DNA of 64,000 bases from Alteraurantiacibacter aestuarii. GTDB lineage: Bacteria > Pseudomonadota > Alphaproteobacteria > Sphingomonadales > Sphingomonadaceae. Below the pieces are notes generated by a model that ran no database searches, was not told where the DNA came from, and saw only the letters and a program-made list of their open reading frames with translations. The DNA lies in NCBI RefSeq assembly GCF_009827405.1, contig NZ_WTYY01000002.1, positions 62,001-126,000 on the forward strand, in the 5' to 3' direction. This document shows, in pieces, positions 44,109 to 46,573 of this stretch; the stretch's first letter is position 1; every line of letters starts with the position of its first letter. The position numbers and the translations under genes were made by a program.

Positions 44109-44903
44109 ATGGCCACCGCGCCGAAGCAAGGTTTGCCCGTCCTTTACAAGGACCTCGTCCCGCTCAACAGCGCAGATCATGGTAGCTGGAAGTCCATCAG
44201 CGTGGACAAGGCCCCGTGGGTCGCCAAGCAGCATGCCATTCCGCTGACGGTGGAGGAATTCCCGCAGGCACAGCGCGATTTCCCGATCGTGTTTTCCGCT
44301 GGTGACAATCCCGTGCCGCTGGCGCTGATGGGCCTGAATGACGGCGTGAACGTGTTTTTCGATGACGACGGCTCGCCGCTCGACACCTCCGCCTATATGC
44401 CGGCCTATATCCGCCGCTATCCGTTCCTGCTGGCAAAGCTGGACCGCGATACCACCAATCTTTCGCTGTGCTTCGATCCGACCAGCGGCCTGCTGGGCGA
44501 ATTCGAAGAAGGTCGCCCGATGTTCGAGGCGGACAAGCAGCCTACGCAGCACACCACCGAACTGTTGCAGTTCTGCGAGAAGTTCGAGGAAGCGGGTGCC
44601 AAGACCCAGCTGTTCATGGAAGAAATCCAGAAGGCCGGCCTGCTGATGGACGGCGAAGTTGCCATCAACCGCAATGACAACCCCGGCCAGCCGTACATCT
44701 ATCGCGGCTTCCAGATGATCAATCAGGAAAAGCTGCGTGAATTGCGCGGTGACCAGCTGCGCAAGTGGAACGAAAACGGCCTGCTGCCGCTGATCCACGC
44801 CCATCTGTTCTCACTCGACCTGATGCGCTTCATTTTTTCCAAGCAGTCTGCACAGGGCAAGGGTCCCTCGCTCCCCGCCGGGACCGCTGCCGCCGCCAAT
44901 TGA
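44109..44903 (+). CDS. SapC family protein
   Basis: A 264-residue SapC-domain protein. After a short N-terminus it carries LVPLNSADHGSWKS and PAYIRRYPFLLAKLD typical of the family. SapC was named from an S-layer-linked gene of Campylobacter; in sphingomonads SapC genes frequently sit beside TonB-dependent receptors and tryptophan halogenases, neither of which is present here. It has no signal peptide. The ATG at 44109 has GGAGAG about 8 bases upstream. A GC hairpin lies after the stop. Confidence 0.85.
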   Translation: MATAPKQGLPVLYKDLVPLNSADHGSWKSISVDKAPWVAKQHAIPLTVEEFPQAQRDFPIVFSAGDNPVPLALMGLNDGVNVFFDDDGSPLDTSAYMPAYIRRYPFLLAKLDRDTTNLSLCFDPTSGLLGEFEEGRPMFEADKQPTQHTTELLQFCEKFEEAGAKTQLFMEEIQKAGLLMDGEVAINRNDNPGQPYIYRGFQMINQEKLRELRGDQLRKWNENGLLPLIHAHLFSLDLMRFIFSKQSAQGKGPSLPAGTAAAAN

Positions 44904-44934
44904 GGCCAGCGCGCCTGACAGGTGAAAAAATCTG

Positions 44935-44962
44935 GAAGGGGTCGGCATGTCCGGCCCCTTCT
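44935..44962 (+). terminator. Hairpin after the SapC gene
   Basis: GAAGGGGTCGG and CCGGCCCCTTC pair around a CATGT loop about 30 bp past the SapC stop. It is not followed by a long T-run, so termination would be weak. Confidence 0.5.
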
Positions 44963-45000
44963 GCACTTGAAAGGCCCTGAACCGCACTTATTTTGGAGAA

Positions 45001-45102
45001 GTCCCGTGGGCTGCCCTCATGGCCCGCCGGATAAGTGCACTTTGGTGTACTTCCTCCCAGAACCTTGGCCACCTCGTACCTTTGTGTACGGGGTGGCTTT
45101 TT
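45001..45102 (+). ncRNA. Candidate trans-acting small RNA with CCUCCC anti-Shine-Dalgarno loop
   Basis: This spacer between the SapC gene and the convergent amidohydrolase gene holds three consecutive hairpins on the plus strand: GTGGGCT/GGCCCGC near the 5' end; AAGTGCAC-TTTG-GTGTACTT at 45033-45052; and a 12-bp stem GCCACCTCGTAC/GTACGGGGTGGC at 45068-45097 that runs into TTTTT, a textbook intrinsic terminator. The single-stranded stretch between hairpins two and three reads CCTCCCAGAACCTT, an anti-Shine-Dalgarno sequence. TTGAAA at 44967 and TATTTT at 44989, 16 bp apart, form a possible promoter. The architecture is that of Hfq-type sRNAs; the exact 5' end is inferred. Confidence 0.55.
45068..45102 (+). 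terminator. Intrinsic terminator at the 3' end of the candidate sRNA
   Basis: The 12-bp stem GCCACCTCGTAC/GTACGGGGTGGC with a CTTTGT loop, followed by five T residues. The T-run exists only on the plus strand. Confidence 0.85.
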
Positions 45103-45121
45103 CATGTGGGCATTGGGGTGC

Positions 45122-46066
45122 CTATTCGGCCGCCTGCGCCAGATTGCCCGATCCGGCGAGCAGGTCCTCCGCCAGTCGCCTGACCAGGCCCGACAGGACA
45201 TTGACCACGTTGCCCAGCCCGTCTCCCGCCTCACGCAAGGCCGGCTCCAGATAGGTGGTTCGGCAGATCTCCACCTGCATTGCATGCAAGCCGCGCGCCG
45301 GAGAAGCGTGGCGATCGAGCACATAGCCGCCGGCATAGGGGCGGTTATGCGCCGCGCGCCGCCCGCAGCTGGCGAAATGGTTGAAGGCCGCAAGGCTGAG
45401 GTGAGCGCTGCAGGCAGAGCCATAGCGATCGCCGATCACGAAATCGGGTGATGGGTCCTGGCCAGACTTGGGGCCAAGCGGCGGCATGGAATGCAGATCG
45501 ATCAGCAGCGCCGATCCCCAGCGATCGCGCAGGCTTTCCAGCATGTGCGCCAGCGTGGAATGATAGGGGCGATGAACCAGGTCCAGCCGCGCGGCCAGGT
45601 CTTGCGAGCTCATCCGTCCCTTCCACAATTCGCCCATGCCCGGCAGGCGGCGCGGCACCAGCCCCAGCCCGCTGCGTGCGCGCCGCCCGGCGGCAAAGCG
45701 GGTCAGGCCCGGTGGCGGATCGCCTGCCACCATGTCCCAGTCCATGTCCTCCGGCGCGCGGTTGAGATCGATCATCGCGCGCGGAGCATGGGCCACCAGC
45801 AGAGCGGCCCCGGTCTCTCGCGCCACGTCGCGCGCCACCAGATCGGCCAGGCGATCCTCCAGCCGCACGCAGGCATCATCGGGAAAGCGCATGCGGGCGA
45901 GCAGGGCTTCTGGATAGGTTCGCCCGGCATGGGGCACGGCAATCAGCACCGGAATAGGCGAAGGCCTGCGCGCAAGCATCTCGAATGCGGGCTTGCCCTC
46001 ATCCCCCGGCAAGTGACCGCCGTGGCTGCCACCCGAATCGCGCGCCTGTGCTGCCTCATCGACCAT
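45122..46066 (-). CDS. N-formylglutamate amidohydrolase
   Basis: Hydrolyses N-formylglutamate to formate and glutamate in some histidine-degradation pathways; close relatives act on other N-acyl amino acids or on peptidoglycan, so the substrate is open. The 314 residues show VPHAGRTYPEALL with a metal His at the N-terminus, a DLHSMPP motif, HNRPYAGGYV and a C-terminal EICRTTYLEP, all characteristic. No hut genes are near. I chose the ATG at 46066; GTG 46093 would add nine residues. It is divergent from cpdR. Confidence 0.85.
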   Translation of the reverse strand: MVDEAAQARDSGGSHGGHLPGDEGKPAFEMLARRPSPIPVLIAVPHAGRTYPEALLARMRFPDDACVRLEDRLADLVARDVARETGAALLVAHAPRAMIDLNRAPEDMDWDMVAGDPPPGLTRFAAGRRARSGLGLVPRRLPGMGELWKGRMSSQDLAARLDLVHRPYHSTLAHMLESLRDRWGSALLIDLHSMPPLGPKSGQDPSPDFVIGDRYGSACSAHLSLAAFNHFASCGRRAAHNRPYAGGYVLDRHASPARGLHAMQVEICRTTYLEPALREAGDGLGNVVNVLSGLVRRLAEDLLAGSGNLAQAAE

Positions 46067-46198
46067 CCATGCTTGCTGGCCTCGATTATCCACGAAGTCA
46101 AAATTCCTGTTTCAAAGCTGGGCACATCCAAATCGGCACGGGAAGTTAACGGCTTTGTGGTTTAGGCCGCGACCTGCACCAAAAGAGGGGACCGCAAC

Positions 46199-46573
46199 AT
46201 GATCCGTATCCTGCTGGCCGAAGACGATCAGGCTATGCGCACATATCTGGCGCGCGCGCTTGAAAATGCAGGATTCTCGGTGGTTCCCGTTAGCAGTGGC
46301 ATCGAGGCCCTGCCCTATATGCAGACCGAGATTTTCGACCTGCTGCTGTCCGACATCGTGATGCCGGAAATGGACGGGATCGAACTGGCCCAGCGCTGCA
46401 ACGAGATCAGCCCCTCCACCAAGGTGATGTTCATCACCGGCTTTGCCGCCGTGACGCTGCGCGCCAGCCGCGAAGCACCCCATGCCAAGATGCTGTCAAA
46501 GCCCTTCCACCTGAAAGACCTGGTGCTGGAAGTGGAGCGCATTTTCGAGGATGCCATCCCCGTCCGGATGTAA
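46199..46573 (+). CDS. cpdR: CpdR-type single-domain response regulator
   Basis: A 124-residue receiver without output domain. The acidic pocket Asp9/Asp10, phosphoacceptor Asp52 in LLLSDIVMPEMDG, Thr80 and Lys101 are all present. The N-terminus MIRILLAEDDQAMRTYLARAL and the GFAAVTL segment match CpdR, which in Caulobacter targets ClpXP to degrade CtrA and other cell-cycle proteins when unphosphorylated. A GAGGGG box precedes the ATG. It stands alone, as CpdR usually does. Confidence 0.87.
   Translation: MIRILLAEDDQAMRTYLARALENAGFSVVPVSSGIEALPYMQTEIFDLLLSDIVMPEMDGIELAQRCNEISPSTKVMFITGFAAVTLRASREAPHAKMLSKPFHLKDLVLEVERIFEDAIPVRM

Follow-up and report, generated by a model that had tools for sequence, protein, structure and literature searches.

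A small RNA gene facing an FGase gene in Alteraurantiacibacter aestuarii, most likely a diverged orthologue of the alpha-r8 RNAs MmgR and SisA

The alpha-r8 small RNAs comprise MmgR of S. meliloti, SisA-D of C. crescentus and the Rfam family suhB/mmgR (RF00519), and are described here from excerpts of the papers cited. According to the excerpt of PMC12559287, most species have one alpha-r8 copy adjoining the gene for N-formylglutamate amidohydrolase (FGase), with the core UUUCCUCCCU. An older paper states, in the part quoted, that the suhB motif is not linked to particular neighbours (PMC1273637); the two statements can be compatible, given that multi-copy genomes exist. SisA is described as repressing many mRNAs by direct pairing, using an anti-Shine-Dalgarno (anti-SD) signature together with Hfq (PMC12559287), and is linked with the switch between feast and famine; the role given for MmgR lies in carbon storage (PMC7143759, in part). 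In Sphingopyxis granuli TFA, thnR is repressed by SuhB and Hfq, according to the excerpt of PMC6563040. Literature searches for mmgR in Sphingomonadales and for small RNAs with an anti-SD in Sphingomonadales returned no paper, although a sphingomonad copy may be included in Lagares 2016/2017.

The stretch of DNA analysed here (the window) is 64,000 nucleotides long and comes from contig NZ_WTYY01000002.1 of Alteraurantiacibacter aestuarii. The relevant features are as follows.

44109-44903, plus strand: gene of a SapC family protein (PF07277, by Pfam), upstream
44933-44963, plus strand: hairpin 3' of sapC and before the sRNA promoter, likely the sapC terminator (fold of 44904-44975, z = -3.46)
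44967-44994, plus strand: promoter-like site TTGAAA-N16-TATTTT (CTTGAAA with the preceding base), from a consensus scan
45001-45102, plus strand: sRNA gene with putative ends, likely an FGase-linked alpha-r8 (MmgR/SisA/suhB) orthologue (fold, orthologues, covariation)
45001-45032, plus strand: hairpin 1 (SL1), from the predicted fold and double changes
45013-45020, plus strand: SL1 loop GCCCUCAU, conserved and C-rich, candidate second anti-SD seed (fold, conservation)
45033-45052, plus strand: hairpin 2 (SL2), from the predicted fold and double changes
45051-45066, plus strand: alpha-r8 core UUCCUCCC with the single-stranded linker CCUCCCAGAACCUU
45067-45102, plus strand: intrinsic terminator, a 13-bp hairpin at 45067-45098 and a U-tract (consensus scan, fold)
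45122-46093, minus strand: FGase gene (PF05013, by Pfam), convergent, the syntenic marker of alpha-r8
46199-46573, plus strand: gene of a single-domain response regulator (PF00072, by Pfam), beyond FGase, presumably CpdR

An earlier note, made from the letters of the sequence, had placed an sRNA at 45001-45102 with three adjacent hairpins, an intrinsic terminator and a promoter-like pair in front, and these elements were recovered. The fold of 45001-45110, which contains SL1, SL2 and the terminator hairpin, reaches -55.9 kcal/mol, whereas its shuffles average -35.64 (z = -6.07, with 0 of 200 as good). In a consensus scan of 44850-45250 the site at 44967-44994 was the single promoter-like one (shuffle mean 0.0), and the terminator of the sRNA was the single terminator-like one (shuffle mean 0.4). 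The exposed CCUCCC that the note had seen lies in the linker CCUCCCAGAACCUU (45053-45066), for which the predicted fold gives an unpaired probability of 0.82-1.0. There is also a second exposed C-rich stretch, absent from that note, namely CCCUC in the SL1 loop, where the unpaired probability is 0.66-1.0.

The spacer, bounded by the stop codons of sapC (44903) and of the convergent FGase gene (45122), had been taken to be free of genes. Five ORFs of at least 20 amino acids overlap 44985-45105, but length changes among the orthologues and covarying stems speak against coding, and a coding ORF running through the spacer was ruled out on these grounds. Fold and covariation thus support a probable gene, with its own promoter-like and terminator sequences, for a structured RNA of about 100 nt. 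The RNA might instead be a piece of the sapC 3' UTR, or an antisense RNA controlling only the facing FGase gene: it lies less than 100 nt from sapC and 20 nt from the FGase stop, and read-through of the FGase end could overlap it. However, a strong predicted hairpin (44933-44963) separates sapC from the sRNA gene and is followed by the promoter-like site, the sRNA terminator ends the RNA ahead of the FGase stop, and it is the open stretches that are conserved, not the overlap with FGase. We regard this explanation as extremely unlikely.

The CTTGAA of the promoter-like site resembles the -35 element of S. meliloti RpoH1 as given in the excerpt of PMC8844928. It is found in 33 of the 37 genus sequences, and many Novosphingobium orthologues have CTTGC instead. 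A pattern search before groES, meant as a yardstick for a possible RpoH promoter, found any such site in 3 of 20 loci only, too few to be of use. In all seven of the groES regions that were read (L302, L304, L308-L310, L318 and L319) there is an inverted repeat, GGCACTC...GAGTGCCA, which resembles CIRCE.

Orthologues of the sRNA were found in all 36 other genomes of the genus (BLAST, E <= 1.7e-5). Within the family, BLAST matches at E <= 0.001 occur in 91 of 149 genomes and 60 of 96 genera; in other families of the order, 10 of 24 genomes have a match at E <= 1, the best with E = 0.058. A covariance model was built on the genus set less one sequence (36 of 37). Run against 147 genomes of the order at E <= 0.01, it matched 89, of which 51 belong to the window's own family and 38 to other families (all of the latter at or below 43.3 bits), and it had no match in at least 13 genomes of the window's family. 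At the level of the class it had matches in 30 of 190 genomes; the 28 that lie outside the family score 45 bits or less. The window's own genome has one strong copy at 95.7 bits, and the next match scores 24.5. Named records among the matches listed include Novosphingobium, Qipengyuania, Tsuneonella, Croceicoccus and Altererythrobacter.

Covariation was assessed in a genus alignment (A1) made with MAFFT and not fitted to a structure, with the RNAalifold consensus of A1 as the structure. It takes in 36 of 37 sequences; the one omitted, L051, has a longer SL2 loop and is the same place as L111, which carries a CCCCUC loop. Double changes occur in 21 of 31 pairs and 94.9% of the cells pair. The covariation score of 0.370 is reached by 0 of 500 shuffles, whose mean is 0.206, and sliding the partners gives at most 0.102. 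Covarying base pairs in hairpins two and three among relatives were part of what the earlier note had staked its proposal on, and they are there: 7 of 7 core pairs of SL2 and 5 of 13 pairs of the terminator stem show double changes, as do 8 of 10 pairs in SL1. A family-wide set, which was chosen by pattern and fitted to the model, has double changes in 22 of 31 pairs. In alignment A2, also fitted to the model and including one partial match of 27 nt, the pattern demanded CCCTCATGG and CTCCCTGAACCTTGGCC and 80 of at least 119 loci were used, so that loop conservation in A2 is not evidence. Mean column identity is 67% in the outer stem of SL1 and 73% in the SL2 stem, against 98% in the inner part of SL1 with its loop and 99% in the linker. 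Because stems and open parts are conserved in opposite ways, the pattern fits pairing seeds carried on scaffolds.

The best Rfam match of the window sRNA is suhB/mmgR (RF00519), with 20.6 bits against a gathering score of 41. Among ten relatives scanned by Rfam, suhB was listed for eight (28.3-44.1 bits), and the scans of the other two, L106 and L114, listed no suhB match at E <= 0.5. Only two of the 37 genus orthologues pass the cut-off, those of G016 (44.1) and G004 (42.2). By Rfam's own cut-off the window sRNA is therefore a non-member, and it is filed here as a diverged positional orthologue. Two other matches were taken as chance, a SAM-III riboswitch in the window (13.5 of 45 bits) and a HepC_CRE in one relative (22.6 of 140 bits).

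The case for alpha-r8 comes from the FGase-facing place, which is decisive, the order of the parts and the core. When the 10-nt core UUUCCUCCCU is compared with the window's UUCCUCCC (45051-45058), 8 of 10 positions match; the last U is an A and the first two U are paired in SL2. As is characteristic of alpha-r8, a hairpin precedes the core and a Rho-independent terminator follows it. UCCUCCC is present in 131 of 142 distinct family rows, in a set where 80 of 147 rows came from a pattern search. The FGase adjacency of the usual single alpha-r8 copy is found at the window locus and well beyond it: FGase is downstream and convergent at all 36 genus loci listed and at 30 of 30 loci of the order and family, four of these from the window's own genus. 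For RF00519 loci fetched across the class, FGase is present at 24 of 30 and faces the RNA in all 24; at the remaining six there is no FGase within the stretch examined. The statement of the earlier note that the sRNA is not tied to either flanking gene must accordingly be split. The sRNA is in the opposite orientation to FGase and is no part of it, but its FGase-facing place is kept far beyond the genus. Most genus loci share the wider gene order of 44109-46573 (SapC, sRNA, facing FGase, response regulator), and alpha-r8 loci of other families also have the pair of FGase and response regulator.

It could be argued that this is an unrelated sphingomonad sRNA that acquired its CCUCCC linker by convergence and stands beside FGase by chance, as its Rfam score is low and its linker continues as GAACCUUGG, not as the common GAACUUGGG. 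For chance to explain the FGase-facing place across many families, the identical order of parts and the orthologues that pass the cut-off, all three at once, is improbable, and we consider this origin very unlikely. Some copies from other families of the order (f2-f8) may be intermediate between this form and the rest of alpha-r8. The sequence comparisons suggest that the window sRNA is most likely a diverged FGase-linked orthologue of MmgR and SisA.

The same genome has two suhB-type RNAs elsewhere that pass the Rfam cut-off, with 51.8 and 51.0 bits.

G000:C1:68823-68901: suhB-type RNA L057
G000:C4:258519-258596: suhB-type RNA L058

Both carry AUCCUCUCCCAAAAACUUCC instead of CUUCCUCCCAGAACCUUGG. 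FGase was found near neither of the two in the stretches examined, nor near any of seven same-genus RF00519 loci fetched; among all 12 RF00519 loci of that Rfam search it is present at two, both from another family of the order. The two Rfam-named suhB copies of the window's genome are most likely paralogues. Since the cut-off misses the FGase-linked copies (that of the window and 35 of 37 genus orthologues), routine annotation would name dispersed paralogues 'suhB' and leave the FGase-linked gene blank. In three genus genomes, suhB-type RNAs that pass the Rfam cut-off stand in tandem arrays of 2-3 copies spaced about 230 nt apart (G019:C3:222982-223524, G025:C36:199062-199367 and G020:C65:7374-7670).

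The second C-rich stretch deserves separate treatment. The SL1 loop reads CCCUC, CCCCUC or CCCCCU... in all 36 genus sequences and in all 28 sequences examined from the rest of the family. BLAST or the genus-built model had found them, and the motif played no part in their choice. The 28 are the best-scoring 26 outside the genus together with L070 and L133, and a sample found in this way with a model built on the genus leans towards the genus form. The FGase-linked copies of other families, of which 24 were compared, have a variable and mostly not C-rich loop: a run of at least three C is present in 7 of the 24 37-nt stretches, and CCCUC in two. Most of these copies have a 5' hairpin when folded (read by eye), and the idea that SL1 is a newly gained hairpin was ruled out, such a hairpin being usual there. 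The special feature of SL1 thus looks to be the C-rich loop only. From the sequences compared, this loop is apparently particular to Sphingomonadaceae, though not strictly confined there, because the hits L134 and L136, from two genomes that belong to a single other family of the class, show a C-rich 5' loop as well. By analogy with AbcR1/2, which use two independent anti-SD motifs according to the excerpt of PMC8844928, the SL1 loop may be a second anti-SD seed. A fuller version, which we put forward tentatively and with somewhat more doubt than belief, is that the FGase-linked alpha-r8 RNA of Sphingomonadaceae would be a two-seed regulator. In it, an SL1 loop with CCCUC or CCCCCU would have its own ribosome-binding sites beside those of the ancestral CCUCCC linker, an AbcR-like design would have been reached separately, and a two-domain Hfq would serve it in the genus. 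The loop lends itself to a simple test of the way in which a second seed might arise in an old sRNA.

By analogy with SisA, the likeliest mechanism would be Hfq-assisted pairing with ribosome-binding sites and a reduced translation of carbon and nutrient genes. The gene would be transcribed into an RNA of about 100 nt and bound by Hfq, and the CCUCCC of the linker would pair with several mRNAs at their purine-rich ribosome-binding sites, possibly joined in this by the CCCUC of the SL1 loop. Pairing would lower translation of these mRNAs and so tune carbon and nutrient metabolism, as SisA does in Caulobacter. A different partner, another RNA such as a sponge or antidote, is conceivable, since the Caulobacter sponge CrfA binds the alpha-r8 core by base pairing and each of the two RNAs reduces the level of the other. 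Against this, point mutants show that repression of mRNAs by SisA is direct (both from the excerpt of PMC12559287), and a main partner other than mRNAs seems barely credible. That the window sRNA is an FGase-linked alpha-r8 orthologue below the cut-off, and that it would be transcribed, bound by Hfq and paired with ribosome-binding sites, is something we hold with good confidence.

Genes for Hfq were found in 7 of 9 genus genomes searched, and not in the window's own assembly G000 (69.7% complete) or in the incomplete G005. In the seven (G001-G004 and G006-G008) the open frame is 188-232 amino acids long and Pfam matches Hfq in it twice, at a distance of 240 nt (for example G003:C3:77034-77462); in G038-G040, from other families, there is a single match. 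A literature search on Hfq with tandem domains found nothing. A scan of the window's own genome for the pairing pattern TTYTGGGRGG found 5 sites, the sRNA itself included, and the reversed pattern, as a control, found 6, so that there is no excess. Of the four sites outside the sRNA, two lie 6-7 nt upstream of a start codon, before a 302-amino-acid protein without a Pfam match and a Pyr_redox/cNMP-binding protein, and are leads only. With the sRNA placed in alpha-r8, the knowledge on MmgR (carbon storage) and SisA (feast to famine) can be tried out in sphingomonads, which attract interest for pollutant breakdown.

Other known RNAs resemble the window sRNA in outline. AbcR1 and AbcR2 (alpha-r15) likewise have three stem-loops and two separate C/U-rich open stretches with anti-SD motifs (PMC7143759 and PMC8844928, in part), as the window sRNA has three hairpins and two C-rich open stretches, and NfeR1 (alpha-r14, cuckoo) has three hairpins with anti-SD motifs. 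The sRNA might then belong with one of these and not with alpha-r8, and for one relative, L115, the ar14 score of 32.8 bits exceeds that for suhB (28.3). That score, however, is far below the ar14 cut-off of 58.8, and the Rfam scan of the window lists neither ar14 nor an alpha-r15 family, in an output that hides same-clan overlaps. The motif CCUCCUCCC, found in all three hairpins of NfeR1, is absent from 45001-45102. As far as the excerpt of PMC7143759 goes, the AbcR genes are in tandem beside lsrB, whereas the window has one strong copy in its genome, between SapC and the facing FGase, and MmgR too is predicted to have three stem-loops. Membership in either group is thus very improbable. With alpha-r8 the window sRNA shares the FGase-facing place, a weak hairpin, a mostly open core resembling theirs (UUCCUCCC) and a terminator, and its genome has several copies, as in Caulobacter. 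It differs in a core that ends in A and not U, a linker reading GAACCUUGG, a conserved C-rich SL1 loop and 20.6 of 41 bits. SuhB of Sphingopyxis granuli TFA is likewise a sphingomonad RNA of the suhB group and, in the account excerpted from PMC6563040, acts on a 5' UTR with Hfq; at 61 nt it is shorter than the sRNA of the window.
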